Assembly: GCA_963691705.1 (NCBI GenBank) | Contig: OY829539.1 | Coordinates: 36,837,656-36,901,655 of the forward strand | DNA: 64,000 nt | Reading direction: 5' to 3' | From: Viola odorata | Lineage: Eukaryota > Streptophyta > Magnoliopsida > Malpighiales > Violaceae | Part shown: piece by piece, positions 1,036-38,660 of the stretch | How positions within the stretch are numbered: the first letter of the stretch is position 1 | How the letters are laid out: each line of letters starts with the position of its first letter | Position numbers and translations under genes: made by a program | The notes under the pieces: model-generated | Database searches by the model: none | What the model saw: the letters and a program-made list of their open reading frames with translations, nothing else | What the model was told of the DNA's origin: nothing

Positions 1036-1191
1036 GTAATTACTCCTTTTTGAAAAAAATATAATAATATGATGTGTGCATGTTTTCTTATGAAAACATT
1101 TTTGTAGGAACTCACGTTCCCCTTTGTTAAAAATCAATATATATGCAATTTTTATTTTACGAATCTCTTCTTTTTGCATTTTTACTTTCAG
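1036..1191 (+). other. Ogre-type intron between protease and RT (E1)
   Basis: Donor TCTCC^GTAATT and acceptor TTTACTTTCAG^GATGAA. Removing 156 bases joins LPDVS to MNISSDCLDKAYVF in frame, and the same junction is found in E5. Ogre elements are known for a spliced intron at this place. The intron holds one copy of the block GTAGGAACTCACGTTCCCC that is present three times in E5. Confidence 0.8.
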
Positions 1192-3055
1192 GATGAATAT
1201 TAGTTCGGATTGTCTTGATAAAGCCTATGTCTTTACTGGCGAAGAAATTGTCGTCACAACAGAAGACAAGGTGAAAATCCCCTGCGAATTGACCCGTTTA
1301 CTGGAAAGTTCAGAAAAGCAAATAACCCCTCATCGGGAGGAATTGGAAGAAGTAAATTTGGGGGCAAGCAATGAGAATCAGAAGTTGGTTAAGATCGGAA
1401 CTACCCTGGACACGACTCAGAGAGAGGTTGATTTCCCTCCTCAAAGACTACTCGGATGTGTTCGCATGGTCATACGCCGATATGCCATGTCTTGATCCTG
1501 AGATAGTTGAGCATCGCATCCCGTTGAAGCCTGAGTTTAAACCTATCAAACAAAAACTCTGAAGGATGCATCCAAACATCCTTTTGAAAATCAAAGAAGA
1601 AGTTACCAAGCAACTAGATGCGGGTTTCTTAAGAGTTGCCGAGTACCCAGAATGGATCGTCAATATAGTGCCAGTGCCTAAGAAAGATGGGAAGGTTCGC
1701 ATGTGCGTGGACTTTCGGGATCTTAATCGAGCCAGCCCTAAGGATGACTTCCCGCTTCCCCATATCGACATCTCGGTGGATAGTGCCGCCAGTAACGACA
1801 TGTTCTCCTTTATGGATGGATTTTCGGGATACAATCAGATTAAGATGGCACCCGAAGACAGTGAAAAGACGACCTTCATCACACCCTAGGGAACCTTCTG
1901 CTACAAAGTAATGCCCTTCGGGTTAAAGAACGCAGGAGCCACTTACCAACGTGCTGCCGTCACCCTTTTCCATGACATGATGCATAAAGAATTGGAAATA
2001 TATGTCGACGACATGATAGACAAATCTCGCGGGACGCAAGATCATGTAGACATCCTAAAGAAGGTATTTGAAAGGTTGAGACAATTTCAGCTACGACTAA
2101 ACCCAACTAAGTATACCTTTGGAGTGACCTCCGGAAAGTTGTTAGGATTCATCATCAACAACAAAGGCATAGAAGTGGATCCTGATAAGATAAAGGCAAT
2201 TCAAGAGCTACCCGCTCCCAGCACCGAAAAAGAAATACGAAGCTTCTTAGGACGCATCAACTACATCGCTCGCTTTATCTGCCAGTTAACACTTACCTGC
2301 GAACCGATGTTCAAAATGTTAAGGATGCACGGAGATGCAGAATGGGATGAAGATTGCCAGAAAGCCTTTGAGAAAATCAAGACATATCTGCAAAGCCCAC
2401 CTGTACTAGTTCCCCCGACGATAGGACGTCCCTTGCTCATGTATATGACAGTCACGGCTAGCGTCATGGGCTGCATTTTGGGATAGCGCGATGAGTTAGG
2501 AAGGCGTGAACAAGCCATCTACTATCTTAGCAAAAAATTCAACGAATGTGAAATGCGCTACTCCATGTTGGAACGAACTTGTTGCGCCCTAGCATGGTGC
2601 GCCCGAAGGCTCCGGCAGTACATGTTGTATTACACGACATGGTTAATCTCCCGCATGGATCCCCTGAAGTACATCTTCGAGAAGCCGTATCTGTCAAGTC
2701 ACATTTATAGATGGCAAGTCTTATTAGCCGAGCACGAGATCATATATGTAATGCGGAAGGCGGTTAAGGCAAGCGCTCTCACCGATCACTTGGCTGATCA
2801 CGCCTTGGACGAATATGAGTTGTTGAGTTTTGACTTCCTGGATGAGGACATTGTATTGATTAATGACAAGATCGCAGAAGATCTTAGAGAAGATGATTAG
2901 TGGACCATGTTCTTCGACGGTGCGGTGAACCTCTCAAGCAAGGGAGTAGGAGTCGTGGTTATAGCCCCAGATGGCCGTCAATTCCCCATAGCGTGCAAGT
3001 TGAACTTCCCATGCACCAACAACATCACCGAGTACGAGGCATGCATCAGTGGTGT
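1192..3055 (+). pseudogene. E1 reverse transcriptase / RNase H pseudogene
   Basis: Starts at the intron acceptor and reads into RT: VPKKDGKVRMCVDFRDLN (1670-1725), MPFGLKNAGATYQR (about 1911-1950), YVDDM catalytic motif near 2000, then the first RNase H-like region (YYLSKKFNE, near 2520) and the start of the active-type RNase H (MFFDGAVN, 2907). Breaks: a frameshift near 1420, TAG at 1887-1889 replacing the Trp of TPWGTF, TAG at 2484-2486, and TAG at 2898-2900 where E5 has Trp. It is interrupted at 3055 by E2. The RT would act on the element's own RNA in particles; this copy cannot. Confidence 0.9.
3051..3055. repeat. Target-site duplication GGTGT, left copy (E2)
   Basis: GGTGT lies directly before the LTR start TGATAAG and is repeated at 19130-19134 directly after the other LTR end TTATCA. 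Five bases is the usual length for Ty3/gypsy integrase. Removing E2 and one copy restores the host E1 frame. Confidence 0.95.
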
Positions 3056-3590
3056 TGATAAGATCCGAGATCTCTTCTGGTCGGAAACGGCTGCTGCAGC
3101 TAGTCGGATGGGAAGCGATCGGTGTCGGAGGTACCTGCAAAGCGCCGGAGGGGGACTCCGGCATAGACACTCCGATGCTTAAGTCAGTTCGAGTTTTCAG
3201 AATGGTAGAGATTCTCCAAGATGATCTCGATCTTACCTTCTGTTTGGAAAGATGGGGGTATTTATAGGCCGAAGTTGGCGATACCTGACAGCGATAGGGG
3301 TGCAGCGATAAGCATCGTCCGAAGTTTTCGCTTCCAGCGATAATAGGTAAGCCATCGCGGCGATAATCACGTAAGGCCTATCAGGAGCGACATCCTCTCC
3401 GTTCCCCTAGGATGGGATGACGCCGTGCGCGTAAAGATGCATGAGATCCCCCCCCGCTGAAGTCGACCATCCTAGGAAACTTCCGCCGGCCCGGGCGATA
3501 GGTTGGTTTTTCAGGGAAGCGTATAGAAACTCATCAAGGATAGATGCCGTAGCTACAATATTGTCGTCAGGAGCATTCCAATTGTTATCA
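3056..3590 (-). repeat. E2 3' LTR
   Basis: Begins TGATAAGATCC and ends CAATTGTTATCA on the + strand, i.e. TGATAAC...TTATCA in element sense. TATA-like sequence CCTATAAATA (element sense) at 3260-3267. Several GCGATA motifs occur between about 3275 and 3370. The block around 3135-3180 (GCATCGGAGTGTCTA and CTTTGCAGGTACC in element sense) is shared with the E3 and E4 LTRs and probably lies in the transcribed part. Confidence 0.95.
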
Positions 3591-4500
3591 TAAGCCCAAC
3601 TGAAAACTAGCCCGAGTGTTCACCAAGGGCTATCCATGTCTGATATCTTTAGATAGGGGTTTGCTCTGTCATGAGGTGATATTTCCACAGAGGGCTTAAG
3701 CTTTCTTTATCGTTCAAAGGCTGATCAATCCCAATGCGGAACGAGGGCTTAGATCCACAACTTTCCACTAACCCGGTCAAGTTCGTCCTTGTTTCTTGTC
3801 AAAAAGTCCTGTCTCCTCGAGACAGTAAGAATTCTACTAGGAGGCCGCTGGGGCGCTAGTGATTCTGAAGGCATTACTTTTATTCAGCGATACTGGCCCA
3901 TTTGGCCTTTCAATAGGACTTATAAAGTCTCAGCTTTGTTCGAGTCATAGAAGGACCGTCGATAGGTCGCTTGCGACATCGTCGCGTATATTCAACCAGG
4001 CCGCACCATGGGCTGGCATATATTTCGGGTCTATCGTCCCTCCAAGTGTTCTGCAAAGACACAGAGGAGATAGAAACTTATATAGAAGTTAGCAAACTTT
4101 ATACTTACAGAGGTTCGAGGTCACACGAGCCCAATTTCTCTTTTACGCTCGAGAAAACAGCGGTATCAGCGTGGCTTTATACCATCAGCTACCTTATGAT
4201 TAGCGCGGCTTTATACCACCAGACGCCTGTGATGTCATCGCGGTTTTACGCATCCAGGGCCACCTGCGACATCAACGCGGCCTTACACTGTGGATACCGG
4301 TAACCTTATGGTTTTAGCGTTAGGGCTACCAGTGACACCGTGCCTCTCAACATTTTTCAGACTCTGCCTCGTACTCCTTCCAGTATCTGTATCGTGAACG
4401 TCACCCGTCCCTTTCGTTCTACGCTTATCAATCCTCGAGGTTATCGGGGTGGCTCGTCTTTTGAGGACCTCAATTTCTTTTCCCAAGTCCTCCCTTCACT
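3591..4500. other. E2 3' flank with degenerate ~36-bp tandem repeats
   Basis: No convincing gene. From about 4150 to 4320 there are four to five loose repeats of roughly 36 bases, each with a core like GCGGCTTTATACCA followed by CAG and a GCGATATCA-like tail. E4 holds the same array at about 37370-37520 in the same place before gene 1. It may be a regulatory region for gene 1 or the 3' untranslated end of the gag-pol transcript; the sequence alone does not decide. Confidence 0.5.
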
Positions 4501-4506
4501 GGAGCC

Positions 4507-4513
4507 TATAAAT
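4507..4513 (+). promoter_or_regulatory. TATA-like box of antisense gene 1 (E2)
   Basis: GAGCCTATAAATCGGAGAG lies 56 bases before the gene 1 ATG. E4 has GAGCCTATAAATCTGAGAG at the same distance (37730-37736), so the box is kept in both copies. Confidence 0.6.
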
Positions 4514-4562
4514 CGGAGAGCTTTCTCCACCCACGTTCTCCTCATCTTTACCAGCTAGCATC

Positions 4563-4940
4563 ATGGATCATTTGACTAAGAATTTTCTTCTCTCCAAGGG
4601 TCATTCACTCAGGAACCTCAATGACGGCGACGTCGGTTTCCTTGAGAACATGCTGGTCAAGACTTCTGAGGATATTCTGGAGCTGCAAGGAATGCTGACT
4701 CCGCTTTATTCCCGGCTGGGGGCCATTTCCCTGGAGGACTTCAGTCCTTTGGAGAGCGTATCAAAGCTGTCCGCCTCCATCGCTCGGATTCAGGTAGTAA
4801 TCGCCATGCTGCAGCAGCGTAAGGACATGTTGGGGTGCTGCCTGAAGGGGATGAGGGCCACTTCCCATGATCTTGTCCTGGTCATGGATTCCTTGAGGGA
4901 CCTTCTTGAGGTGCCCGAGGATACTGGTTCTGACACCTGA
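4563..4940 (+). CDS. Antisense gene 1 of E2: 125-aa helical protein of unknown function
   Basis: ORF MDHLTKNFLLSKGH... of 125 aa, open, with no signal peptide or membrane span. It looks mostly helical (LENMLVK, SIARIQVVIAMLQQRKDML) with a paired Cys in MLGCCLKG and an acidic tail. The E4 copy (37793-38170) is the same length and differs at 18 of 125 residues by my alignment, about 86% identical, so it has evolved as a protein. It has its own TATA-like box 56 bases upstream and AATAAATAAA about 70 bases downstream. It is antisense to gag-pol, first of four genes after the 3' LTR. I do not recognise the family; a small coiled-coil adaptor is only one possibility. Confidence 0.75.
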   Translation: MDHLTKNFLLSKGHSLRNLNDGDVGFLENMLVKTSEDILELQGMLTPLYSRLGAISLEDFSPLESVSKLSASIARIQVVIAMLQQRKDMLGCCLKGMRATSHDLVLVMDSLRDLLEVPEDTGSDT

Positions 4941-5012
4941 TAACGGTGGCTCCCTTTGGGCCTTTTTCTTTTCCTCTTGCCTTGTAAATGTACCTTTCGG
5001 CCGGTAGGCCAT

Positions 5013-5022
5013 AATAAATAAA
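5013..5022 (+). terminator. Polyadenylation-like signal after gene 1 (E2)
   Basis: AATAAATAAA sits about 70 bases after the gene 1 stop, in GGCCATAATAAATAAA. E4 keeps the same GGCCATAATAAATAAA after its gene 1 (about 38250-38265). Confidence 0.5.
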
Positions 5023-5330
5023 TCGTTTCAATCATTCCGCCTTGTGACTGTTCTTCTTCTTTACTGCGCTCTTTGTCATGTTCCAAGGAATATTCTTAGC
5101 CCAACTGAAAACAGTCTTGCCATTGGGCGGTTTTTCTGTTGATCGTTCTGCCTTAACTCCGCGCCGTCCTCATTATAACAACTGATCAGCAGATATTAGC
5201 ATTATTCTTGATTTGCGCGAGATTTCAACAGGCATGACTGCAAATCTACATTTGCACTTCAGACTGTACACGTGCCAATCTTCAAGAGTCGGGTTGGAGG
5301 ATCGAAGAGTCTCTTTTCTTCTTTTCCCGG

Positions 5331-5338
5331 CTATTTAA
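5331..5338 (+). promoter_or_regulatory. TATA-like box of antisense gene 2 (E2)
   Basis: GGCTATTTAATGAGG lies about 80 bases before the ATG at 5415. E4 has GGCTATTTAAAGGG about 75 bases before its gene 2 (38583-38590). Confidence 0.45.
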
Positions 5339-5414
5339 TGAGGCTTTTCCTTCTTCATTCTTATCCATTTCTTTCTCCTTCATTTTTCTTCGTTATAGAT
5401 CCTCTGCGAGTCTC

Positions 5415-5873
5415 ATGGTTGATTCTTATTTGCTAGGTACGGCTTCGAGGAATTCACCGCCAACTCCTCCGACTACCCCTGACACAGATAATCCTCCCCC
5501 ATCGCCTCCTTGGAGGCCGGTTGTCCGCCGGCGAGGTCGCAAGAGGCGGAGGAAGGAAGTTGAACAACGAAGGAAGGAGGCTGCCAAGGCCTCTAAGTCA
5601 TTTTTCGACTCTCTGGCTTCTCTGGCTAGGGAGGAGAAAAAATCGTTTCCTCCTTTGAATGATTCGCCTCCGTAGGTTCCTTCTGCTGGTTCAGCCGTTG
5701 ATGCAGTATCGCCAAGCGTTAAGGAGAAAACAACCGGGTCGACTACTGCCGCTAGAAAGAGGGTCGGTGAGTCTTCTCCCCCTGCTGTTGTGGATTCACC
5801 CTTCTGGGGTGGCGATGACGAAGAGGATGTAGTCTATTGCTACGGCATTACTTGGTCCGACGGTGAAGAGTAG
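5415..5873 (+). pseudogene. Antisense gene 2 of E2: Pro/Arg-rich protein with one premature stop
   Basis: The reading frame from ATG 5415 to TAG 5871-5873 is 152 codons plus stop, with one internal TAG at 5673-5675. The N-terminus has a proline run (SPPTPPTTPDTDNPPPSPPW) followed by a strongly basic stretch RRRGRKRRRKE, which could be a nuclear localisation signal, and the C-terminus is acidic (DDEEDVVYCYG). E4 carries an uninterrupted 140-aa version (38661-39083) with the same start MxDSY and the same tail DDDVVYCYGI, so this TAG is a nonsense mutation, not the natural end. The function is unknown; the composition suggests a nuclear or nucleic-acid-associated protein. Confidence 0.65.
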
Positions 5874-6340
5874 GGCCTAATCCTTCTTTTTGTAGATGCC
5901 GTATGGCCTTCCTCATAATAATGAATGATGGTTTTACTTCCTTTTCGCTTCTCATCGCTTACTTATTGTTTCTTTCTGAGCGTTCCGGGTTATCGCGGAA
6001 GCGTCCCTTTCGCTACGGGTAACTGCCTTCAACTTCTAATCAGTAACTGTCTTCTTTCAGAAGGCACAAATGACTATCCACGTGTCTTTTTCTGTTCTGT
6101 ACGTGTTTCATTTTTACAGGCTGTCTCTTCTTTAGGCTTTTCCTTTATAAGGAAATCATCTCTCTCTTTTACTGCTTTTGCTACTATTTTGAGTTTTTGC
6201 ACATTTCCTCTCTCTTCTGCACTTCTTTTCTTCGAGAGGTTTTACCGCGACCGCTCACTGGTGCCGACGACCGGCTCACTGGCTTTTTGCTCCAGGTATT
6301 TACTCCTTCTACCGCCGTAGATTTACTTTCCCTGTCCCTT

Positions 6341-8583
6341 ATGTCTTCAACTGTTGAAAACCCCATAGATCCCGAAGCTAGGAGAACTCGCAGCATATTC
6401 AATTGTAATGAGGTTTTGAGGGTTGAATTAGAGGAGAGTGGTATTACTTTTCCCACGGGCTATCGCCCTTTTGTCTCTTTGAAGGACACTCGGCTGCCTG
6501 ACGCCATGTGGGGAACATTCCGGTTAGTTTATTTCAAGATGTTTACTTACGGATTCCGTTTCCCACTCCATGCTTCTCTGTTGAAACTGCTAGATCATTA
6601 TGACCTTAATCCCGTCCAGATCACTCCACCCTCTTGGTGTGGTATTTACGCTTTCCTTCGTTCGTGCGAGATGAAGCGTATATTTGCTCCATCGCTTGAT
6701 CTATTCCGCACGTTCTTTGTCTTGAGTTGTCGCGACTGCCTGGTAGATATTACCCCCATATGGGATGATGTCATTGTGCAACTGTTCTGGCGGAACTTTC
6801 AAGGTTTTGAGGAACGCGTAGATGACTGGAAGTCTGGCTTTTTCACCCTTCGTTTGCCGTCACGACTCTGGCGCGGGGGTTTCAATCGAAAAATCAATAG
6901 TGGCATTTGGAAAAGACCGGAAGCGCTGTCAAGCCAGGATGTTTCCAACGTTAGCGCCTTGTTAGAAATAGAAGGGTCTTTCCGTATCCGGGAGTTTGCT
7001 CGGTTCAGGCCCTTGTCAGAGTGCGTTGTGGGTGAGTTTCCTTTTTCTTCTTTATCGCTTCAATCTTCTTAATTTGCTAATATGTTTTGTTGGCAGGTAA
7101 CGCTGAGAGTAGTTCTTCTGGGGAAAGTGACGCCCCTTTGAACGTAACACCTCTCCAGTCGCTGCCTCCTTCTCCTCCGCCTGAAAATTCCCGCCGCCCA
7201 CCCATTCCGCCTGGAAGGGAAAGGACTAAAATCGTCACAACTCGCAGAGCCTCCACTCGACCTTCTTGTTTCCTTGAAAATTGGCTTCCGTCCCGTGGCA
7301 AGAGGGTAGCTCAAGGCGATCCTATCTTTGAGAAAATCGACAGCGATAGCGAGAGCATGGACACTGGTCCTGAATTACGTCATGCTACTATTACCCAAAG
7401 GATGAAACTTAGGTCGAGGAGGAATGATGACACGGCAGAATCGGCTGAGGACGATAGCGAAGAAATTGCAGAAGAGACGGAGCGTCTCGTAAAGAAGGTT
7501 CGCACAGAGAAAACTAACCCCCCAGTTCCCCCTTTGAAGGGAGTTAACGCGGTCCCCCCTGAGAATATTAACGCTTCTCATGCCGCGAGTACTTCGCAAG
7601 TGGTGAAAAATATCAAAGCTATCAGGGTGCCTTCCGCCGTTTCTATCGAAAACAATGAGACCTCGGCAGCCGCGACCTCTCCTTTGTCGTCGGGCCATCC
7701 TGCTTCCCCGATAGGTTCTTTTATCCCAGAGGCAACCCTACCGGTTTCGAATTTAAGCGTTCCTCCTGAATTTCTCCCACGGAAGCCTCCTCTTTTATTT
7801 CTGTCTTCAATTTCGGGCGTTGGTGATTGCGCAAAAAGTTGTTCCCCTCCTTATATCGCCAACCTTTCTCCTCAGAGGTCCCAGGGCCCCACTGGATATC
7901 AGCTGGATTTGTCCTCTTTCAGCACTGACGGGCTTCGTGCCTTAGGAATATCGGATCCGTTATCGCGAGAAGAGCCCGTGGGTCCCATAGTGGGACAGAT
8001 GTTTACTTCTTCCAAGGACAGGGAAGAGTTTTTACAGCATGCTCCCGAGACACGACAGTCACACCTCATGAACGACATGCTGGCTAGCTTTCGGAAATTT
8101 CATTATTTTCTTGAAGACCAGCGTAACAAAACTCGACCCTCTTCGAATTTGCAGGAACAATTAGACGCGGCCTTGGCGAAGGCGAAGGAGCTATCGCAGT
8201 TGCAAGAACGAACTCGGGCGGAGTTGGAGGATTGTCCCGCTGAACTTTCTCGGGAGAAGTCGAAGGGGAAAGCGAGAGCAGAGCTAATGGAGGCGGAACT
8301 GGTGGTGGCTGATAAAAAGAACGTCTTCCTCCGTGAAGAGTTGTCATCTCGCGATGCCGATTTGGCCAAAGTTCCTTCGAGGATAGCCTGGTGGAAGAAT
8401 AAGACCATCGAGGTTTGTATCGCAGGATTTATGGATCTCCATATCCGAGGCGTCGTCGATTCATCCATGCTGGCCGATTACGCTTCCCAAAAAATTAAAG
8501 ATCTTAGTGAAGGCGAAAGGGGTTTTCCCCCTTCTGGGGAAAAGCAAGGGAATGATGACGGCGAGGCATGCGATGACTCTTAA
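6341..8583 (+). CDS. Antisense gene 3 of E2: spliced 725-aa protein, PF04195-like domain plus coiled coil
   Basis: Two exons, 6341-7031 and 7097-8583; the 65-bp intron has GTGAGT and TTGGCAG ends and splits a Gly codon (phase 1), giving an open 725-aa protein. ATG 6341 (MSSTVENPIDPEA) is chosen because E4 has an ATG at the matching site (39557); an upstream in-frame ATG at 6197 is not supported. Residues about 55-215 resemble the 'putative gypsy type transposon' domain (YGFRFPLHASLLKLLDHYDLN, then a Trp-rich WRGGFNR region). The middle is Ser/Pro-rich with basic patches. Residues about 578-655 form a Glu/Lys/Ala coiled coil, preceded by an FHYFLE motif. A TATA-like TTTATAAGG lies near 6144. 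It is paralogous to gene 4. The molecular function is unknown. Confidence 0.75.
7032..7096 (+). other. Intron of antisense gene 3 (E2)
   Basis: 65 bases, donor G^GTGAGTTTCC and acceptor TTTTGTTGGCAG^GTAACG, T-rich before the acceptor. It joins VV-G to NAESSSSGESD in frame. E4 keeps the site (donor near 40261, acceptor near 40328), and gene 4 has its first intron at the equivalent codon and phase. Confidence 0.8.
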
Positions 8584-9202
8584 TTGATCCATTGAAGAAC
8601 ATTGCTATTTGTTTTCCATGTCTTGTAATAACGTCCTATCGCGCGGCGATATCGGTACCTTGCTCTTCGGGCGATATCTTATTTTATTTCGCTCTCTTGT
8701 ACTGTCTTGAGAACTGTTCTTTTATTCAACGCCGATTTGCATTATTTCCTTTCTTGTGATATCGCTTTTTCTTTTTATCAAAAAGTCACATCTACTTTTT
8801 AGAGCATTTAATGCTCGCGACCCTTCCGTCGGTGCGCGGGAAAAGTCATGATGGTGCAGACACACGTGTTCGTTTCTTCTGCCGCTTCACCTTAGCGTGT
8901 TTAGAAATTTTAACAAGATCGAAGCGTTTGTCGCGCTTCTTCTAGAGTCATACTCATTGCTTGAGTCTTATCCCTCATGCCGCTTTGACACAACGACTGC
9001 AGCATCCGTCGTTTCCTTTTAATTACTAGGGTTATAAACCCTCTTTATTTCTTCCCTTTTCTTTTTCACTCCACTTTTTCATATTATCTCTCGGCCGTCT
9101 TGTCCTTCTCACCTCCATTCAAGGCTTTCGAAGTTCTTTCCTTTCAAAGGTATTTCCCTTCCTTTCCCTCGTCTTCTTCATTTCTATTTCCTTAGCCCTG
9201 TC
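8584..9202. other. Spacer between antisense genes 3 and 4, with gene 4 promoter region
   Basis: No ORF of interest. It contains GCGATATCGG and GGGCGATATC motifs near 8640-8675 like those in the LTRs, a TATA-like GTTATAAACC at 9031-9040 about 165 bases before the gene 4 ATG, and a pyrimidine-rich 5' leader. E4 has CTATAAAA at 42263-42270 at nearly the same distance from its gene 4, which supports a promoter here. Confidence 0.5.
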
Positions 9203-11534
9203 ATGGCAAAAACTCGCCGTTATGAGTCAAAATCCATCGATGAGAAGAAAATGGATACCACGGTCAGTGTTATTACCACGGAGGCCATTCTCCAGGAGCA
9301 TTTGGCTACTCACGGTGTCGTTATTCCTGACGGTTACCAAGCTGTTGTTGCCCCTGGGTCAGTTCGTTTAAACAGCGTTCTGACCGGCAATCAAAGGGTG
9401 TTATATGCCCAGATGTTTCGCTACGGTTTCCGGCTCCCTATCGATTCTTTCGTCAAGGGTTTGCTTATTGCTGGCAATTTCAATCCTGCCCAGTTAGCCC
9501 CAAATGCATATTGCTGTGTTTATGCTTTTTTGGAACTCTGTAGATATAAGGGGATCACTTCCCCTTCTCTTTTGCTGCTTAGATCCCTTTTTAAATTGAT
9601 GAAGTGTCGGGGTGTGATAACCATATCGCCTCGCTTTGACGATGATTCTCTCAAGTCTTTTACTTGGAAGTTGCTCCATATTGAGTCTTCTGTTGAGGCT
9701 TGGAAAAAGGAGTTCTTTCTGATAAATTTTCCTGACACTCCTGGTCCCGAGTGGCGTTCTGGGTTCAACCAGGACGTCCAAGATGGCGTTTGGAGTCGAC
9801 CAGGGACACTTCCCGCTCGTGAACAAGGATGGTTAAACACCTTACTCCAACTGGAGATCAGCGTTCATATTCGACTCACGACCTGCAGAATGGCCATTCA
9901 GGAGTGCGTTAGACGTGAGTATCGCGCTACCTTTCCCTTTCATCACTGATACTAACGCTGACGTTATTTTGTGATTTTGCAGCGACGGATCCTGATTATA
10001 AACCCGAAAGCATAAGAAGACGCTTAAGGAGAGCTCATAATAGAGAAGAAAGGGAAAAGCTCGATTCAGAGGCCACTGATAATCCTTCTGAGCTTCCGGC
10101 TACTTCCGCGAATCTCGCTCAAGTATCCTCCTCCTCAGTTGGCGAAGGGGATACTGACATCCCTGAAGGTGTTCCCATCATGACCGTTGCTGCTCCCTCG
10201 TCTTCTCAGGCCCCTAAGGCCATTGCCAGAGGAAAAAAGAAGAAAAGAACACGGAGTATCGCCACTCTTACTCCTTCTCCCGACGCTGCGGGTTCTTCTG
10301 AGGCACTACCTTCCCTCAACACCGCTACCGTAAGCGTGTTGTGCCTCAATATCTTTCGTCATTTGATCTATTTTTCTTTTTTCTCAATTTGTACTCCTTG
10401 CAGGAGGCCGTTGTAGTTACTGCTTCCGCTCCTTCAGGCGATATGAATCTCACTTATGTGCTGAGGGGTTCCGCGAAGAGGGCCCGGATAGAAGGCGAGG
10501 ATGAGAACATACCCTCCTCTAACATCGCGGGGGAAGGTGGTTCCGTTAACGTTCCTAATTCCGCAGTGGTTCCTCCAGGTGGACATTCCGCGAAAGTTTT
10601 GGGGAACCTAGGCGGTGCGGACCCCTTTGGTGCTTCGCCCAGTTCCTTTGGTGGGCCTGTGCATCATTATTCCTCTTCTTTAGGCTATCAAGACGTCTTG
10701 CAGGACCTTTCGGGCTATCAGCCTCATGGTACCTTCCTGCCCCCGGGCAGTTCTTCTTCACAGGTTCGCGCCCCTGGTCCTCTGGCTTTTGTTCCCTCTA
10801 GCGTTCCTTGGCGGCAACGCTATAATGAAGACGGAACCTCTTTCAATTTTGTGGCGGATCTTTGTCCATTAAATGGGCTCGGCGAAGCAACCCATCAGGT
10901 TGAGTTGTTCGACTTCCGTACCCGTGGTTTGGCAGCCATCGGGGGCGATGGTTCAGATGAGGTTTCTGCCCTGCTGGCTTCTCAAATTCTGGCCTCATCT
11001 GTAGAACGGGAAACTTTCCTTTCCCAGTCGGAAGATGACCAAGTGAACTCCTTCCGTGCTAGCCTTTTCTCCAATATGATGAAATTTCACTACTGGGCGG
11101 AGGAGATGAAGCATCGGACTGTTTCCCTCCGTTCTGTTTCGGCGGAGCTGTCCAAGGAGCAAGATGAAAGGAAAAAGGTGTTGGCAGATCGTGCCAAGAT
11201 ACTGCTGGCTCACCACGAGTTACAGAAACAGCATTCCGCTCTGGAAACGACTTTGTCTGAGGAACAGGCCAAAGTGACTGTTTTGGAGAATGAGAAGTCC
11301 TCTTTAGAAAAGGAGAAGGCAGCTTTGGCGGAAGAGTCAGTCGATATGGGCTGGTGGCATGCTGAACAGACCGCCCGTGTTCTAGTTAAGTGTTTCGAAG
11401 AAATTCATGGGGTGGATGCGTACAAGGGCGAAGATGTCGCGAAAGCCTTTCTACAGAGTTCTGCCCATATCAACGAGGCAGGCTATCGCCAAGCCAAGGC
11501 AGCGGGCTGGAAACGAAAAGACCCCGAGAGCTGA
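9203..11534 (+). CDS. Antisense gene 4 of E2: spliced 729-aa protein, PF04195-like domain plus coiled coil
   Basis: Three exons, 9203-9914, 9983-10329 and 10404-11534. Both introns (68 and 74 bp) have GT and AG ends, and joining them gives a single open frame of 729 aa. Residues about 45-215 form a PF04195-like domain (YGFRLPIDSFVKGLL, FNPAQLAPNAYC, WRSGFNQD). Exon 2 is Ser/Thr-rich with a basic stretch RGKKKKRTRS, a likely nuclear localisation signal. Exon 3 ends in a coiled coil (about 585-665) after FHYWAEEM and a WWHAEQTARVLV motif. Gene 3 has the same plan, nearly the same length and the same first-intron position, so the two arose by duplication. The E4 homologue is at 42438-44784. The function is unknown. 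Confidence 0.78.
9915..9982 (+). other. Intron 1 of antisense gene 4 (E2)
   Basis: 68 bases, donor AC^GTGAGTATC, acceptor GATTTTGCAG^CGACGG, phase 1. It joins ECVR to PTDPDYKPES. The E4 counterpart 43150-43219 has ACACGTGAGTG and ATCATGCAG^CGACGG. Confidence 0.8.
10330..10403 (+). other. Intron 2 of antisense gene 4 (E2)
   Basis: 74 bases, donor ACC^GTAAGCGTG, acceptor TACTCCTTGCAG^GAGGCC, phase 0. It joins LNTAT to EAVVVTAS. The E4 counterpart is 43578-43673 with GTGAGT and TTTGCAG. Confidence 0.75.
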
Positions 11535-12637
11535 TGTGTCGCGATATTTTGCCGTTCCCTCCAGCGATCAAATATCGCTTGGCTTTTGTCTTTTGTCTTT
11601 GCAGCATAAATATTTTGAACATTGAATCTTTGTAAATCCTTGAGATGCCTTTAATATTTCTAGACAATCCCTTTATCGATATTCCTCTTTTATTTTTCTC
11701 ATCGCGAGACTTCTCTCGTCACTGAGGTTGCCTTATCCTCACGGTGCGTTTACTTTCTTGAGCAGATCCTTGGTATTTATACCGAGATGACCAAGATCTA
11801 TGTCGGGTTGGCCTTTCGATAAGCCTATCGGTATCATGACCACCGCTCCTTCCGCTGCTCAGAAGTATTCTGCACATTTCTAATTGTAGATCATCAGTAA
11901 CAAAACGAGATTTGAGAGATAGTGATTACCCGTAGGAGCCTGTTCGCTGCCATCATTAGGCTTTATCACGGAACCCGTTTCGAATCGCGTTTTCCCTCGG
12001 CTCTATACTTCGCCAGGGATTACTCATCCGGTTACTAGCTAGAATTACGCGATCCTTCACGTTTCCCTTATCTCTCGTTCGGCCTTTCTAAGTGCCTCAT
12101 CTCGTGAGCTGTCGGATCGGGACGGCTATCACAAGGCTAGGGAATTTTCACTTTTATAGGCGTTGTCCTCTCATTTAGAACCGTGTCCTTACTTAATGGT
12201 TTAGCTGCACCAGCCCAACCGTTAAGATAGGATTCTTGTTTCTAAATAGAGTTTCTAACTCTTTGGGGCGTGTCTTGTCTTGATGTACCGTCTCCACGAG
12301 ATCGGTTATCATTAAAGAACTTTTCACTCCCAAAGATACCGGGCAGTGCCCTCACTTAGTGAGCCATCTGATCAAGATCGGTCATCACAAGGATAGGACT
12401 TTTCACCCCCGGGGGCGTCAAGGATCTTTCAATCCGACGCTAATCAAGGATACACTGGGGTCGTGCCCTCACTTAGTGGGCCATCTGATCAAGACCGACC
12501 ATCACAAGGATAGGACTTTTCACTCCCAGGGTACCCCCCTTTTTATCTGCACAAAAGCAACCACAAACCCACGAAAACTCTCCTATTGAGCGTTAGCCAC
12601 GGTTAGGGTCGTTATAATCCAAATAGTGCAGATAAAA
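11535..12637. repeat. E2 convergent intergenic block with five-unit degenerate tandem repeat
   Basis: It lies between the 3' end of gene 4 (+) and the integrase end (-), so two transcription units converge on it. From about 12090 to 12540 there are five degenerate repeats of roughly 75-120 bases, each starting like GTGCCCTCACTTAGTG and ending like ATAGGACTTTTCACTCCC. E4 has the same five in the same order at about 45366-45810. The small ORF inside (12359-12589) is a by-product of the repeats. A terminator or insulator role is possible but unproven. Confidence 0.6.
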
Positions 12638-13609
12638 TTAAACTCTAGGATAATATAACTTCAAACGAGCGATATTCCAGGAGTTGGATAAGGGCGTACC
12701 GTCAAGTGTCTCCAGGCGATAGGCCCCTCTTCTGACAACGTGGGTTACACGATACGGTCCTTCCCAGTTAGGACTAAGCTTTCCCATACGTTGTCCGGTT
12801 GCTCGCCTGTCTCGGAGCACCAGGTCACCGTTTTTCAACAATCGCTCTTTGACCTGCCTGTTATGATAACGGGCCATTTTTCTTTTGTAGTGTTGCGTTT
12901 TCAGTAGGACTTCTTCTCGAACCTCTGGTAACGCGTCCAGGTTAGCACGTAACCGTTCCTCGTTCAGTTCGTCACGAAAGTGAGCCACCCGTAGGCTCAT
13001 GGCCCCAATTTCCACTGGCGTAACGGCTTCAGTTCCAAAAGCCAAAGCGAAAGGCGTTTCTCCAGTGCTAACTTTTACGGTCATGCGGTATGCCCACATC
13101 ACATATGGAAATTCATCAGCCCACTTCTTCTTAGACCCCTCTAGGTTTTTCTTAATACCGCTGAGGATGCTCCTATTAGTTACCTCTGCCTGTCCGTTGG
13201 TTTGTGGGTGAGCCACGGAAGAGAATCTCTGCTCAATCCCGAATTCTGAGCATTGGTCTTTGAAGAATTGGCTGGTGAACTGGGTCCCGTTATCGCTGAC
13301 AAGGATACGAGGCACCCCGAATCTCATGATAACTTGATGTTTGAAAAAACGCCATGTTTTTTCTGCCGTGATTGTGGCAACCGCTTCAGCTTCCGCCCAC
13401 TTCGTAAAATAGTCCACAGCCACTATCACAAATTTTAGTTGGGACCTTGCCTTTGGAAATGGACCCAGGATGTCAATCCCCCATTTGGCAAAAGGACAAG
13501 GGGCGATGATTTCCGATATTTCCGTGGCTGGACGTCGAGGAATTCTAGCAAATTCCTGACATTTGGGGCAAGCTTGTACATAATCGTGGCAATCCCTTCG
13601 TATGGTGGG
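12638..13609 (-). pseudogene. E2 integrase (continues gag-pol frame after one stop)
   Basis: Same frame as the upstream 1322-codon ORF, separated from it only by the TGA at 13610-13612. It holds the second half of the HHCC zinc finger (CPKCQEF) and the catalytic core: first Asp in WGIDILGPF, second in VSDNGTQF and Glu in NGQAEVTN with 35 residues between the last two (D,D-35-E), then a C-terminal GPY-like region (NWEGPYRV). No chromodomain follows, as expected for Tat. Integrase inserts the cDNA into the genome. It would be intact if the stop were read through, since E4 has TGG (Trp) at that codon. Confidence 0.9.
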
Positions 13610-16600
13610 TCAGTAGAATCCTGATCTGAAAACTTGTGCCGCCATGGTGCCGCCTGAAGCGTGCATTCCGCATATCCCTTCGTGGATTTCGCGTAAGGTG
13701 TGAAGGCCCTCTTGTTCGGTTATACATTTGGCGGCGGGGTGAGAAAAACATCTTCGAATTAGATCCCCGTTATAGTACGTGCAACGAGCAGCCTGTCTTA
13801 GCACTTTCATCTTTTCAGCGTTACCGTCAGGCAGCTCTTCGTGCATCAGGTATTTTATTACCGGAATCCGCCAATCATCTTCGAGCTCATTCACACACAA
13901 AGAGGCTTGTTCCTCCATGAAGGACGGCACCGATAGCTCACAATAATACACATCTTTAGGTATAGATGCTTCAGGATTCGCGGCCAGCTTGGCAAGGTAA
14001 TCGGCTTCAGCATTTTCCTCTCGGGGAACGTGCTCGAAGCTGACTCGCATGCCCTCTTTCTTTATTTCCACTAGTTCTCGCGTTACCTTAGAGAGGTACT
14101 GCACCATAATAGGTTCTCGAGCCTGAGAGTGTCCTGAGACCTGGTCAATTATCAGTTTGGAGTCTCCACAAATTTTTAGACGCAGATCTCCTGTTTGGCC
14201 GGTATCGCGCCTTCCCTTTGAAGAAAACTCTCTTCCTATTCTGAGTCCAGCTAGCAACGCCTCATATTCGGCTGCGTTATTGGACAAAGGCTGCAAGATT
14301 CGAATAGCATACCGTATATGCATATTGTGTGGCCCGTTTATGAAGACTCCGGCCCCCACCAGTTCTTGGTTTTTGGCTCCGTCCACATGAACGATCCAAA
14401 GATCCGTATATGTTTCTGGGAAAGGGAGATCCATATCGTTCCATTCCGCTTCAGGTACGCCGCTCAAAGGGTCCTCTGTGAAAGTACACTCCGCTATAAA
14501 ATCAGCAAGGACCTGAGCCTTTACGGACGGCCGGGACTGGTACCTCAAACCATATTGTTCGAGTTCTAGGGCCCAGATCAGCATTCTTCCTGAAGATTCA
14601 GGCTTTCGAAATATCCTCTTCAAGGGTTGGTCTGTAAGTACAACGATAGGATAAGACTGGAAGTATCGGTCCATCTTGCGGGCGACTTGTATAAGGGCGA
14701 ACGCTATTTTCTCAATACGAGCATATCGCAGTTCCGCGTCCTTTAAGACATGACTCACGAAGTAAACTGGGCGATGAGTGTGGTTATCGTCACGAATAAG
14801 GACGGCGCTGACCACTTCGTCTGCCGCGCCCAAGTACAAGTACAGGGTGTCGCCGGACTCGGGCCTTGTCAGTAATAAATCGGATGATAAATAGTCCTTT
14901 AAGTCCACAAATGCTTGCTCACATTCTGGGGTCCACCCGAACGTGGCTTTTTGTCGTATGACTTTGAAAAAAGGGAGGCACTTTTCTCCCTGCTTGGAGA
15001 CGAATCGTCCCAGAGCGATAACGCGCCCCGTTAGCCTTTGCACTTCCTTAACGGTTCTCGGCGATATCATATCATGTATAGCTTTAACCTTGGAAGGATT
15101 AGGCTGGATACCTTTCTGGCTAACTACGTAGCCCAAGAACTTACCCGTCTGGAATGCAAACATGCACTTCCGGGGGTTTAGCTTCATGCGATACCTTTTC
15201 ATCACATCAAAAACTTCCTTTAGATCCTGCAGGTGATCATGAAAATTCGCACTCTTCACCAGTATGTCGTCAACATATGCTTCCACATTTCTCCCTATTT
15301 GTTCCTCAAAAATCTTATTTGCCATTCGCTGAAACGTGGCCCCCGCGTTCTTTAGTCCAAATGGCATCGCTGTGTAACAATACGTGGCTTTAGGAGTAAG
15401 GAAGGCGGTCTTCTTCTCATCCTCTAGGGCCATAGGGATTTGATGATATCCGGAATTGGCGTCCAATGAGCTTAGATATGCGTACCCAGCGGTTTGATCA
15501 ACCAACTGATCTATGCGAGGAAGCGGGTAGCAATCCTTAGGACAAGCATCGTTCAAATCGGTGAAGTCAATGCACATACGCCAGTCTCCATTGGGTTTAG
15601 GAATAAGAACCGGGTTGGCTAACCAAGTGGGATACTGTACTTCGCGAATGAAACCCGCGTCAAGGAGCTTCACAACCTCCTTTTCCACAGCCAACGCTCT
15701 TTCGGTGGAGAACGCCCGTCGTTTTTGCTGAACTGACTTGGCGTCAGGGTCAACGTTAAGCCTGTGCTCGGCTATTTCTCGTGATATACCTGTCATATCG
15801 GCGGGCTTCCATGCGAAATTTCCTTGGCATTTGTTCAGCAGCCGTGCCAGTTGAAGATTTTCCGCTGGGCTGAGCTTATCGCTGACCAGGAAGCTGGCTC
15901 CCTCTTTGCCTATCACTGATACGGGTACCATCTTGTCAAGGGGTTGAGCGCGCTTTTCATCACCCTGCTCGTAGGGGTCTGCCGCTATACACACGTATCT
16001 ATCGCAGCTTGTCTGAGTCATGAGCGAATAGCATTCTGCCGCCAATTTCTGATCACCTTTTATCGATACCACCCCGTCCCAGGAGGGGTATTTCATCTTT
16101 AGATGTTTTTGTGATATCGCCGCTCCAAAGCGATTGAGGAAAGGCCGTCCGAGTATGACGTTATAGGGCAGATTCAGATCCACAACAAGGAACAACAAAT
16201 TCTCTGACCGTTTGTAAGTGTCTTCTCGGAAGTATACGGGTAAGGTGATTACTCCCATAACAGGGATAGGGGTCCCATCCACTCCGACTATGGGTCTCTT
16301 ACTAGGCGTTAACTCATCGTGGGGGCGTTTCATGAGGTTATAAGCTTCCAGCGAAAAAAGGTTCACGGCACTCCCGTTGTCCACAAGAGTCCTTCTTATA
16401 CCATTACTGGCGATGACAGGTGTGACTACCAAGGCGTCATTATGGGGATAGATAACGCCTTTTTCATCCTCTTCTGAAAAGGATAAGATCATGCGATCAA
16501 GTATGTCTATTGCTCCACCTTTCTTTGTCATGCCGTCTCGCGTACGCTTTTCCCCTTTCGCCACCATCGACTGTTCTGATTCATCTGCGTAGGGGATCCC

Positions 16601-17587
16601 TCCCGCTATGATATTGATTATGGGGATGTCATCGCCATCTATCGCGAAGGTTTCCACACCCTTTCCTTTGGGAGCGTTATCCGGCTGTGGGACTGGAGGG
16701 GGCCTTGGTCGTTCGTCTGCCGCTCTTCTTATCGGATTGTTTCGGGCATCTTCCCTTACTTGAGTCGCAAATTCTCCCAGATATCCTTCCTCCACCAAGC
16801 GTTCTATCGCCCACTTTAATTCTCTGCAAGCCTCTGTGGAATGTCCTCTGGCTTTATGGAATTTACAGTAAGCGTTTTCTCTTCTGCCTAAAAGCACTCC
16901 AGGTTTCGTGGGTGCAGGATAACGGATAGGAAGATCTCGCTGTTCCGCTATTGCCAAGATCTCCGCTCTTGGTACATTCAAGGAGGGAAAATCCGGATCA
17001 TACGCCCGATTTTTGTTAGCGTTCCCTTGACGCTGATGAGGGGAACTACCTTGTCTTCCTTTCGAGGCATTTCCTTTTTGCTTATCGTAGGTCTTTGGGA
17101 TGTAATCTTTCCGTCGAGCGTAATCATCAGTGTAATGATCGTCAACCAGAGGATTTGCGGGAGCGGCAGGGATGTGAGGTGCCCCAGGCGGCATATTAAA
17201 TGTTCTATTTCTATTTTCTTCTTCTTCCATTTTCGCATAATTATGGGCTTTAAGTCTTAGTGCGTCCAAGGATATTGGAGGATCCACCATCAATGCATCT
17301 TTCAGTTTTCCATAATGGCAGTTTCTTTTCAAAGCTTCTATGGCGAAATCAACGGTAACGCCCGGCGTTAATGACATTTCCAGATCGAATCGGCTGAGAA
17401 ATTCTTTCAATGTCTCTTGGGGCTTCCGCTGTATGTCAAATAACGCTGCGGCATATTTCCGAATTGGAATTGCTGTACTAAATCTGCTCCGAAATTTGGA
17501 TTCCAACTGTGCGAAGTTACTAATGGATCCGCCAGGAAGACCTTCAAACCAAAGACGAGCAACTCCCGATAAGGTCATAACAAATAT
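13610..17587 (-). pseudogene. E2 gag C-terminus, protease, RT and dual RNase H
   Basis: A 1322-codon open frame from Met 17578, in the same frame as the gag start and cut from it by a single TAG. Counting from that Met: retrotransposon gag domain 1-100, zinc-knuckle-like C-x2-H-x4-H-x4-C at 238-251, aspartic protease LVDNGSA at about 398 and LGRPF at 476, RT 634-830 with YVDD 768-771, first RNase H-like region about 905-1025, and a second, active-type RNase H with D1065, E1104, D1139 and D1193. The start of the integrase zinc finger (H1293 onwards) closes the ORF at TGA 13610-13612, where E4 encodes Trp. All catalytic residues are kept, so only point mutations disable this copy. Confidence 0.92.
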
Positions 17588-18508
17588 CTAACATAAAGCC
17601 GCATCACTGTGGGTTTGAAACTGGACAAAATCCTTCACTTTGTTGATGTGCGAAATAGGATCTTTAGTACCATCATAAGTATCAGCGGGAAGCTTCACTC
17701 GCCTGCTGACCCTGTGACGTCTTACACGACGACTGAAAGGGTGACCTGAGGTATCATCAAGAATCTCACGCGCATGACGTGGGGGAGATATGTCTCCTTG
17801 TCGCCCTCCTTCCCTTGGTTCAGGTATATGATGTCGCCTGGGAGACCGACTGCGACTCCTGGGAGAACGACTTCGATATCTTCTGCTACTGGATCTTTCA
17901 CTGTATACGGGAGATAAACTCCTGTTTGTTCCTTCCCTCCGTCCGGCCCAACGGTTCCTTAACACCTCAAGCTGCCTGTCTTCCTGCAGAGGAAGTCTTT
18001 GCGGCATTTGTGGTACATAAGCCTCTACTACTCCTTGAGTGAGCTGTACATGACCCACCGGGGGATTTCCTGCGGATAAAGGCACTTGGGGGTTCTCTGG
18101 AAACAACGGGGGCAAAGGTCGATCAGCAACAATAGATGGTGTAAATATGACGCGAGGAGGAACGCTAGATCCAGAAGCACCAGGCGTGACTCTAGTGGCC
18201 ATTTCAGTCAAATATTCCAAGCGGGAACGAAGGGCCGCTATTTCCATAGCAAAGGGATTTTCATTGTTAAGCACAGATCCTTCCAAAAGAGTAGTATAAA
18301 GATCAGATCCCATCGTCTGCGATGAAGAAATGACTGTCTGTGAGGAGATAGATCCTCCGGCGATCCCAACCGAGAGGTCCAGAGGTCCCGAGATAGTCGA
18401 TTGCGTCGTCATAGAGAGGTCAGCAGTAGCAAAAGGAAATAACCGCCTGCGAGTTGAGAAAGGAATATTGGAAAATGTAGACCGGTCTGGCTCCGATCTG
18501 GCTGTCAT
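17588..18508 (-). pseudogene. E2 gag N-terminal part
   Basis: 306 codons from ATG 18508 to TAG 17588-17590. I choose ATG 18508 because the frame upstream starts only with GTG and because E3 has an ATG at the aligned place (35954, MASDSDPA). The protein has an Arg/Ser-rich stretch (about 17830-17950, SRSPRSRSRSPRR) typical of nucleic-acid-binding gag regions, and its end runs into the conserved gag core (KDPISHINKVKDF). The TAG is probably a mutated sense codon, because the frame continues on its other side for 1326 codons. If both stops were sense codons the polyprotein would be 1956 residues. Confidence 0.85.
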
Positions 18509-18573
18509 AACCGTTCCGATCTCCCAACTAAACGGAGCTTGGCTATTAAGGACGCTCACTTAATACACCAAAA

Positions 18574-18591
18574 CTCTCAATGAAAGCACCA
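18574..18591 (-). other. E2 primer-binding site
   Basis: Two bases inside the 5' LTR end, element sense reads TGGTGCTTTCATTGAGAG. It starts with TGG as a tRNA 3'-CCA complement should, and E3 has TGGTGCTTTCGTTAAGAG at the same spacing. The matching tRNA cannot be named from the window. Confidence 0.7.
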
Positions 18592-18593
18592 TT

Positions 18594-19129
18594 TGATAAG
18601 ATCCGAGATCTCTTCTGGTCGGAAACGGCTGCTGCAGCTAGTCGGATGGGAAGCGATCGGTGTCGGAGGTACCTGCAAAGCGCCGGAGGGGGACTCCGGC
18701 GTAGACACTCCGATGCTTAAGTCAGTTCGAGTTTTCAGAATGGTAGAGATTCTCCAAGATGATCTCGATCTTACCTTCTGTTTGGAAAGATGGGGGTATT
18801 TATAGGCCGAAGTTGGCGATACCTGACAGCGATAGGGGTGCAGCGATAAGCATCGTCCGAAGTTATCGCTTCCAGCGATAATAGGTAAGCCATCGCGGGC
18901 GATAATCACGTAAGGCCTATCAGGAGCGACATCCTCTCCGTTCCCCTAGGATGGGATGACGCCGTGCGCGTAAAGATGCATGAGATCCCCCCCTGCTGAA
19001 GTCGACCATCCTAGGAAACTTCCGTCGGCCCGGGCGATAGGTTGGTTTTTCAGGGAAGCGTATAGAAACTCATCAAGGATAGATGCCGTAGCTACAATAT
19101 TGCCGTCAGGAGCATTCCAATTGTTATCA
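18594..19129 (-). repeat. E2 5' LTR
   Basis: A 536-bp copy of the LTR at 3056-3590 with 5 substitutions and one 1-bp indel by eye. TATA-like CCTATAAATA in element sense around 18797-18806 would start the gag-pol RNA. Flanked on the right by the GGTGT duplication. Confidence 0.95.
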
Positions 19130-20693
19130 GGTGTGATGGCAACAATCGACTTAAAAGTAAAAAAGCTCAAAATCTTCGGCGATTCGGCCCTTGTCATCTA
19201 CCAAGCCCAGGATTTATGGCAGACACTAGATTCCAAGCTCATCCCTTATCAGAGGTTGCCCACCCAACTCAGGCGGGAATTCAAAGAAACCAAATTCGAC
19301 CGAGTCGACAGAGAAAAGAACCGCTTCGCAGACGCATTAGCCACGTTGGCCTCGATGTTCAAGTTAGAATGCGGAGTAATGCTTCAACCATTGAGAGTGG
19401 AAGTAAAGGAAACTCCGGCATGTTGTGTCACCTTGGAAGAAGAACCTGATGGGAAGTCATGGTTCTAGGACTTAGTACGATTTATCAGAAACCGGGAGTA
19501 TCCACCAGGGGTAAGCCGGGTTAGCAAAAAGACCCTCCAACGCTTGGCTTTAGACTTCTACCTCGACGGTGAGTTGTTGTATAAAAGGAGAGCTGATGGA
19601 GCTTTACTTCATTGCGTCACCATAGCTCATAATGGAGATCCACGAAGGGGTTTGTTCCACACACGCAAATATGCATATGATGGCAAGAGAAATAATGAGA
19701 CAAGGTTATTTTTGGCTTACCGTCGAACGAGATTGCATCGACTACTTCCGAAAATGCCACAAATGTCAGATTTACGCAGACCATCTCCATGTCCCGCCAG
19801 CCCCTCTCTTCAGCCTGACATCGCCTTGGCCTTTTGCGATGTGGGGAATCGACATCATCGACCAAATTCATCTGAAAGCCTCTAATGGCCATCGCTTCAT
19901 CCTCGTGGCAATCGATTAGTTCACCAAGTGGGTGGAAGCCGCCTCTTACTCTAATATCACTCAGAAAATAACCATGCGATTCATTGAGAAGAACATCATT
20001 TGCCGCCATGGGGTCCCGGAAGCGATCATCACAGACAATGGCACTAACCTAAATGAAAAAATGATCGACGGTCTTTGCCAACGTTGAAAGGTGAAGCACC
20101 AAAACTCATCACCATATCGTCTAAAAATGAATGGCGCAGTCGAAGCGGCAAACAAAAACTTGAAGAAAATCATCCAAAAAATGGTGGTCACTCACAGAGA
20201 TTGGCATGACATGCTTCCTTTTGCACTGCATGCTTACCGGATAGCAACTAGTACGTTCAAAGGGGCAACTCCCTACTCTTTAGTCTACGGCATGGAAGTC
20301 GTAATTCCTCTTGAGGTAGAAATCCCTTCTCTCAGAATCCTGGCAGAATTATAAGTAGAAGAATCGGATTGGGCAAGGGTGAGGTACGAGCAGTTAAACC
20401 TCATTCTTGAGAAACACTTGGCCGCTATCTGCCATGCGCAATTGTATCAGCAAAGGATAGCCAACGCTTATAACAAGAAAGTGCGACCTCTCAAGTTCAA
20501 GACCAGGGATTTAGTGTTGAAAAAGATTCTCCCTCATCAGGAGGCTAGTCAAGGAAAGTGGGCCCCAAAGTACGAGGGTCCGTATTTAGTTAAAAGTGCA
20601 TTCTCGGGGGGTGTCCTAATGCTAACCAATATGGATGGAGATGACCTACCAAGACCGGTAAATGCCGATGCCGTCAAGATATATTTTACCTAA
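19130..20693 (+). pseudogene. E1 RNase H end and integrase pseudogene
   Basis: Translated pieces match E5 54971-56701 throughout: IFGDSALVIYQAQDLWQT, DRVDREKNRFADALATLAS, the HHCC finger (HEGVCSTHAN ... CHKCQIY), WGIDII, ITDNGTNLN and NGAVEAANKNLKKI, ending in VKIYFT. It is broken by TAG at 19466-19468, a frameshift near 19625, TAG at 19917-19919 (Tyr of AIDYF), a TGA near 20086 and TAA at 20352-20354. It does not encode a working integrase. Confidence 0.9.
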
Positions 20694-38170: not shown

Positions 38171-38660
38171 AGGCGGTGGCTCCCTTTGAGCCTTTTTTTC
38201 TCTTTCCTCTTTTTTTTTATATTTACGCAGCTGTACTTTCCGGCCGTTAGGCCATAATAAATAAACTGTTTTTATTATACCCTTTGTAACTATTCTTCTT
38301 CTTCAATGTGCCCTTTGTCCTTTTCCGATTGGAGGCATCCTCAGCCCAACTGAAAATGAGTCAGTCATTGGACGGCCTTTTCACGACGGTTTCCTCGCTA
38401 ACCGTTCTGCATTAATTTTGCGCCGCTGTTTTAATGTCAACTGATTGGGTAAAGTTTCAGTTTCCTCGATCTGTGGAGATTTCGACAAGAGTGACTGCAA
38501 ATCTAGATTTGCACTCCAGGTTGTACGCGTGTCAGTTCTCAAGAGTCGCGCCGAATGATCAAAAACTTCTCCCCTTTTTTGGCTATTTAAAGGGATCCCA
38601 CTCCATTTTTCCATTCATCTTCTTGCTTATTTTTCCTCTTGACAGGTTGCCTATGAGCTC

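Follow-up and report, generated by a model that had tools for sequence, protein, structure and literature searches.

Why would a retrotransposon carry, on the strand opposite to gag-pol, a set of genes that occupies more DNA than gag-pol itself? This question is raised by a 64,000-nucleotide stretch of the Viola odorata genome (assembly GCA_963691705.1, contig OY829539.1, positions 36,837,656 to 36,901,655 of the forward strand; hereafter the window, with positions counted from its first letter). The window holds two related long terminal repeat (LTR) retrotransposons, a young copy of ~16.07 kb (E2) and an older, decayed relative (E4), which by their domain order are Tat-group Ty3/Gypsy elements and most likely belong to the Retand lineage. 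In both elements, four plus-strand genes, opposite to gag-pol, follow one another in the same order in the interval separating pol from the 3' LTR. This anatomy and the protein-coding nature of the gene set are very probably correct as described here. On balance, the set is best explained as an enlarged Retand-type antisense accessory region that may encode nuclear regulators.

Four antisense genes shared by two elements

From its first TATA-like motif to its last stop codon, the gene set of E2 spans 7,028 bp, compared with 5,922 bp for gag-pol; its counterpart in E4, delimited by alignment, tblastn and gene ends, lies at 37793-44784 (plus strand). An earlier note on this DNA had described a cassette of about 7 kb in a 16-kb element, larger than gag-pol and composed of four genes in shared order and strand, antisense to gag-pol between the 3' LTR and the pol end, and the coordinates in both elements agree with that description. 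When the four E2 proteins were used as tblastn queries (E ≤ 1e-3), matches in the window were confined to E2 and E4.

Gene 1 (4563-4940) encodes a protein of 125 amino acids that belongs to no Pfam family and is predicted to form a helical hairpin (mean predicted local distance difference test score, pLDDT, of 70). As the earlier note had estimated (about 86% identity, equal length), it is identical between E2 and E4 at 107 of 125 residues (85.6%), and both versions have 125 residues. Gene 2 (5415-5873) encodes a proline-rich, basic protein, likewise of no Pfam family. Genes 3 (6341-8583; exons 6341-7031 and 7097-8583; 725 amino acids) and 4 (9203-11534; exons 9203-9914, 9983-10329 and 10404-11534; 729 amino acids) each carry a TRP28 domain near the N terminus. 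Protein identity between the two copies is 71/139, 478/711 and 445/715 for genes 2, 3 and 4, respectively (gap and X columns dropped throughout). The claim of the earlier note that the cassette is conserved in two copies stands for the presence of the four genes but not for their integrity: genes 1, 3 and 4 are open in E2, where gene 2 is interrupted by one in-frame TAG (5673-5675), whereas in E4 genes 1 and 2 (the latter at 38661-39083) are open and genes 3 and 4 contain 10 and 3 in-frame stops (counted in E2 columns) together with frame changes.

Selection on the four genes

If the frames were under no constraint at the protein level, a ratio of nonsynonymous to synonymous substitution rates (dN/dS) near 1 would be found, and the earlier note had named that value, together with a lack of antisense transcripts, as the outcome speaking against the gene set. 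The ratio was estimated between E2 and E4 by the Nei-Gojobori method with bootstrap 95% intervals, with all stop codons dropped, from 126, 142, 722 and 719 aligned codons for genes 1 to 4; 0, 11, 4 and 11 gap codons, respectively, were dropped. It is 0.081 (0.04-0.14) for gene 1, 0.305 (0.17-0.50) for gene 2, 0.165 (0.13-0.21) for gene 3 and 0.149 (0.11-0.20) for gene 4, so that in this one pair of copies the interval excludes 1 in all four genes. The exons encoding TRP28 have values of 0.13-0.14, and pol has a value of 0.050 on the 948 codons in the portion kept by E4. As a control, shifted plus-strand frames of the same four genes gave values of 0.68-3.64. When genes 1, 3 and 4 are read on the opposite strand, one of the three frames per gene is likewise low (0.17-0.26, with 2-29 stops per copy), as would be expected of a frame whose codon positions are in register with those of the genes themselves. 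By this comparison, all four genes look like proteins kept by selection. Synonymous divergence (dS) is 0.9-1.6 in the four genes and 1.4 in pol; given this resemblance, cassette and pol appear to have moved together.

Genes 3 and 4: TRP28 paralogues with predicted introns

The earlier note had treated the four genes without any family link, which has to be revised for two of them. Genes 3 and 4, paralogues of each other, belong to the TRP28 family (PF04195, cut-off 26.2 bits) with scores of 46.7 and 29.1 bits in E2; gene 4 of E4 scores 30.5 bits, and the gene 3 fragment there, with 18.1 bits, falls under the cut-off. The two proteins match each other over an N-terminal stretch (E 3.5e-34, 218 columns, 33% identity) and a C-terminal stretch (E 3.8e-13, 198 columns, 24% identity). 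In both, a phase-1 intron with a GTGAGT donor follows immediately upon [ED]CV, at matching positions; a further intron in gene 4 brings the number predicted for the cassette to three (65, 68 and 74 nt in E2; 66, 70 and 96 nt in E4). Splicing was predicted from the reading frames and from GT-AG ends in both copies, the GT and AG ends being kept at matching places in E4. Because both genes carry TRP28, match each other and share the position of the phase-1 intron, the pair is, as judged from the sequences, the product of an old tandem duplication that came before the split of E2 and E4. The persistence of introns in an element that is copied through RNA could be explained by the orientation of the genes, since introns of antisense genes would not be spliceable from genomic RNA. 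Such genes may be broken up or overlooked in surveys that apply ORF (open reading frame) finders to unspliced DNA, since their exons lie in different frames.

Genes 1 and 2 have no Pfam match at a meaningful E-value. We also considered whether they are fragments of genes 3 and 4, and no meaningful match to those genes, or of genes 1 and 2 to each other, was found. Among 5.8 billion proteins, neither gene 1 nor exon 1 of gene 3 had a match at E ≤ 0.001 (20 and 180 candidates, respectively) in a search that needs shared 5-residue words and that distant TRP28 proteins would escape. Plant retroelements are present in that library, as the integrase had 4,685 matches, with at most 53% identity among the 120 matches listed. 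No relative of gene 4 exon 1, gene 1 or the integrase was found in viral contigs, and none of the integrase in bacterial and archaeal contigs. A fold search with the gene 1 hairpin returned 499 matches at E ≤ 10 and 0 at E ≤ 0.001, and a sequence search of solved structures returned nothing below E 0.5.

Transcription signals

Along the plus strand of an 8.8-kb alignment of the two copies, there are four conserved TATA-like motifs, one ahead of each start codon; among 20,000 sets of four positions drawn at random, 1 did equally well. In E2 they are located at 4507-4512 (56 bp before the ATG of gene 1), 5332-5338 (83 bp before that of gene 2), 6145-6151 (196 bp, gene 3) and 9033-9038 (170 bp, gene 4). 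The minus strand has two conserved motifs of this kind, one of which is the gene 3 motif read from the other strand. Gene 1 is followed in both copies by a sequence resembling a poly(A) signal, AATAAATAAA (5013-5022 in E2, plus strand). The earlier note spoke of four transcription units, two of them spliced; the TATA-like motif of each gene and the introns predicted in two genes agree with this, but that the units are separate is something we infer.

The G-box (CACGTG) occurs eight times in the window, and five of these lie within 400 bp upstream of E2 genes 2-4 or E4 genes 3 and 4 (5269, 6079, 8863, 39314 and 42098), an enrichment with a binomial probability of 1.5e-5 for a pattern spotted after the fact. 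Three cassette genes in E2 and two in E4 are thereby preceded by a G-box, and only that ahead of gene 4 is at the same place in both copies.

Conserved noncoding DNA

A noncoding block adjoining the pol end (12281-12630 in E2, 45557-45910 in E4) is 85% identical between the two copies, compared with 65-76% in nine other noncoding stretches that were measured, and is a candidate cis site. It contains two units 117 nt apart with the core CCCTCACTTAGTGAGCCA, a 12-bp inverted repeat (TTTTATCTGCAC / GTGCAGATAAAA) and, on the sense strand, AAAAAGGGGGG, which we take to resemble a polypurine tract. The two units are under the threshold of Tandem Repeats Finder, whose single row over 3000-19200 is within gag (17837-17876). 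RNA folding of the block gave no consistent structure (z of -2.3 in E2 and -0.6 in E4 for the sense strand, and -1.9 for the E2 antisense strand), and no Rfam family reached its gathering score within the 64-kb window. Smaller noncoding blocks of at least 84% identity were found at 4170-4227, 5219-5269, 8914-9038 and 11846-11965.

A 13-mer on the minus strand, TTTTCAGTTGGGC, adjoins the 3' LTR (3594-3606 in E2, 36784-36796 in E4) and recurs between genes 1 and 2 (5099-5111 and 38344-38356); both copies have it at these two places, and the rest of the window lacks it. The second occurrence may be the scar of gene 1 joining the cassette, or a second priming site.

A possible nuclear role and its alternatives

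How could such a gene set serve the element? With gag-pol on the other strand, the four protein genes would be transcribed from the integrated DNA, apparently each from a promoter of its own; their antisense orientation would let the proteins be produced irrespective of LTR promoter activity. The TRP28 proteins would then act in the nucleus and bind the DNA of the element itself, with the block adjoining pol as the first candidate site, and this binding would regulate or protect transcription of the element; the products of genes 1 and 2 would be small partners. That nuclear DNA-binding regulators are made from the integrated copy and act on the element's own DNA is a tentative proposal, based on the nuclear location of the Grande gene23 product (PMC7264820), the predicted DNA binding of TRP28 (PMC11963269), the TATA-like motifs and the candidate target. 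A bolder version, which we consider doubtful, is a coordinated antisense regulon in which four independently promoted genes, three of them preceded by a G-box in E2 and two in E4, supply a TRP28 paralogue complex that binds the conserved repeat, so that the regulators precede LTR transcription and are independent of it. If true, such a regulon would parallel the antisense regulators of retroviruses in a form with several genes and with introns.

Several observations weigh against a nuclear regulatory role. The structure model of TRP28 is of low confidence (pLDDT 45), and thus the idea of DNA binding depends on the published prediction. A basic cluster is present in both copies of gene 4 only, gene 2 having its basic stretch in E2, and nuclear entry of the proteins other than that of gene 4 is, as far as such predicted clusters go, unsupported. 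With a single pair of copies at a dS of 0.9-1.6, the dN/dS values are rough though their direction is clear. The pattern set for the TATA-like motifs was picked after inspecting the alignment, and poly(A) evidence is weak for genes 2-4. In another survey, TRP28 was found in just 23% of Retand elements and most extra ORFs were held to be heterogeneous and perhaps functionless (PMC6317226).

Other roles can be proposed for the same proteins, two of which, a particle-associated and an anti-silencing one, the earlier note had mentioned as speculation. They might join the particle or the pre-integration complex and aid nuclear entry or target choice, the helical hairpin of gene 1 and, in E2, the basic stretch that gene 2 encodes being possible structural partners, and a role in nuclear import has been discussed (PMC7264820). 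We regard this as unlikely, considering that neither small gene has Pfam similarity at a meaningful E-value and that packaging would be less direct for proteins presumably not made from genomic RNA. Alternatively, as a special case of nuclear regulation, TRP28 could counteract silencing in the manner of VANC proteins by binding noncoding repeats and removing silencing marks. The conserved repeat next to pol would be a candidate target, and VANC proteins bind noncoding regions of transposable elements (TEs) that form tandem repeats (PMC10398659, PMC5735166). However, VANC targets are described there as diverging rapidly, whereas the candidate repeat is 85% identical against 65-76% elsewhere and the TRP28 exons are conserved, with dN/dS of 0.13-0.14, which makes anti-silencing of this type quite improbable.

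Antisense transcripts of retroelements can form double-stranded RNA (PMC7264820, PMC12786077), and the transcripts here could pair with genomic RNA or trigger small interfering RNAs, with the ORFs as mere passengers; constraint at the codon level in all four genes, with none like it in shifted frames, leaves this a very slim prospect, although an RNA role in addition to that of the proteins could exist. Chance open frames or functionless relics, to which the stop in gene 2 of E2 and the broken genes 3 and 4 of E4 would point, are hardly credible in view of dN/dS values of 0.08-0.31, conserved splice ends and TATA-like motifs, and the uninterrupted frames of genes 1, 3 and 4 in E2. As for a recent capture of host genes by the element, introns and own promoters do look like host-gene DNA, but all four genes are common to copies with a pol dS of 1.4, the duplication of genes 3 and 4 is older still at 33% identity, and the survey of Retand antisense ORFs reports no TRP28 similarity outside TEs (PMC11963269). 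A recent capture is thus highly improbable, while an ancient one could have taken place. Among these explanations, we favor nuclear regulators encoded by an enlarged antisense region.

Anatomy of the two elements and their surroundings

The LTRs of E2 (3' LTR at 3056-3590 and 5' LTR at 18594-19129, minus strand; bounds read from the sequence) are 98.9% identical, differing at 6 of 537 BLAST columns. At a rate of 1.3e-8 substitutions per site per year, the six differences suggest an age somewhat younger than 0.5 million years. The element is a nested insertion flanked by a 5-bp target duplication, GGTGT (3051-3055 and 19130-19134). The host site is the pol of another Ty3 element, whose two halves (1100-3052 and 19134-20687) have an inverted relative at 54977-58478; the sequence flanking E2, up to 3052 on one side and from 19134 on the other, aligns with neighbouring parts of this relative (56547 and 56544). 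The gag-pol of E2 (12638-18559, minus strand), recognized from its ORFs and the Pfam domains PF03732, RVT_1, RNase H, RVT_3 and rve, is a single frame. Because this frame contains an in-frame TAG and TGA (17588-17590 and 13610-13612, respectively), the young copy itself looks unable to make the full polyprotein. A sequence at the candidate primer binding site, TGGTGCTTTCATTGAGAG, is 2 nt inside the 5' LTR. The region between pol and the 3' LTR is 9,047 bp of an internal region of ~15.0 kb.

E4 is 72.9% identical to E2 over an 11.7-kb alignment that ends at E2 position 15486, the upstream part of pol and gag being unmatched in E4. Its 3' LTR is diverged but has the same junction sequence at its end. 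Inverted pieces resembling the E2 LTR are present at 35411-35798, near this LTR. Elsewhere in the window, an ORF at 63328-63948 matches DUF7745 (PF24924) with 58 bits against a cut-off of 26, and the sequence at 62952, upstream of it, presumably resembles a polypurine tract and primer site.

Comparison with known systems

In the pol frame, RVT_1 (662-821), RT_RNaseH (914-1012) and RVT_3 (1090-1202) follow one another, with rve in the next piece. The order of reverse transcriptase, RNase H, second RNase H and integrase matches that of Ogre and Retand, the Tat clades of angiosperms (PMC6317226), which bears out the Tat-group assignment of the earlier note. Ogre elements share with E2 the additional RNase H ahead of integrase and the possession of extra ORFs, but 57% of them carry a plant mobile domain (PF10536) in an extra ORF (PMC6317226), where E2 has TRP28; in the antisense ORFs scanned here, PF10536 had no match up to E 1. 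Envelope-like extra ORFs encode membrane-spanning proteins and are in sense orientation, unlike all four genes here, which are antisense. VANC of the VANDAL elements, compared by description only, resembles the present case in combining extra TE proteins with repeated noncoding DNA and differs in that VANDAL is a DNA transposon with rapidly diverging targets (PMC10398659, PMC5735166).

The gene23 of maize Grande is closer. Located in the interval from pol to the 3' LTR, it is an antisense gene with its own upstream promoter and a nuclear product (PMC7264820, citing Gomez-Orte 2013). In that account one gene is described and splicing is unmentioned, compared with four genes and predicted introns in E2. 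E2 shows two Retand traits, a second RNase H ahead of integrase and TRP28 ORFs placed antisense in the pol-3' LTR region. The Retand elements surveyed by Vicient (2025; PMC11963269) have the Tat domain order, a long region between pol and the 3' LTR and antisense TRP28 ORFs, and some antisense ORFs include coiled-coil (Smc-like) regions, which we count as a likeness. The E2 LTR of ~535 bp is within the range of that survey (315-1,194 bp), whereas the pol-3' LTR region (9.0 kb vs. 2.9-6.6 kb) and the internal region (~15.0 kb vs. 7.4-12.9 kb) are outside ranges that describe recently active clusters rather than define the lineage. Across 63 clusters, the survey counts 104 antisense ORFs, of which 57 contain TRP28, and single richer cases may exist among them (PMC11963269).

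The setting is less novel than the earlier note had held, antisense TRP28 ORFs being published for Retand (PMC11963269), but the four-gene set was not found described. Two TRP28 paralogues per element, their introns, two extra antisense genes and a 9.0-kb region had no description in the literature searched, older papers, figures and supplements being outside its reach. Cases with introns or several genes may be contained in Gomez-Orte 2013, Steinbauerova 2011, Kejnovsky 2006 and Ohtsubo 1999.

An antisense TRP28 ORF is kept in 97% of the clusters of recently active Retand elements surveyed (PMC11963269), and its role is a question in plant transposon biology. E2 goes beyond the Retand pattern reported there by a second TRP28 gene, introns and two further antisense genes. 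It offers a handle on the question, with two diverged and constrained TRP28 paralogues, two candidate partners, promoter-like motifs and a candidate target repeat. One antisense gene is usual for such elements, and four, including an intron-split duplicated pair, are an unusually elaborate version of the same arrangement.

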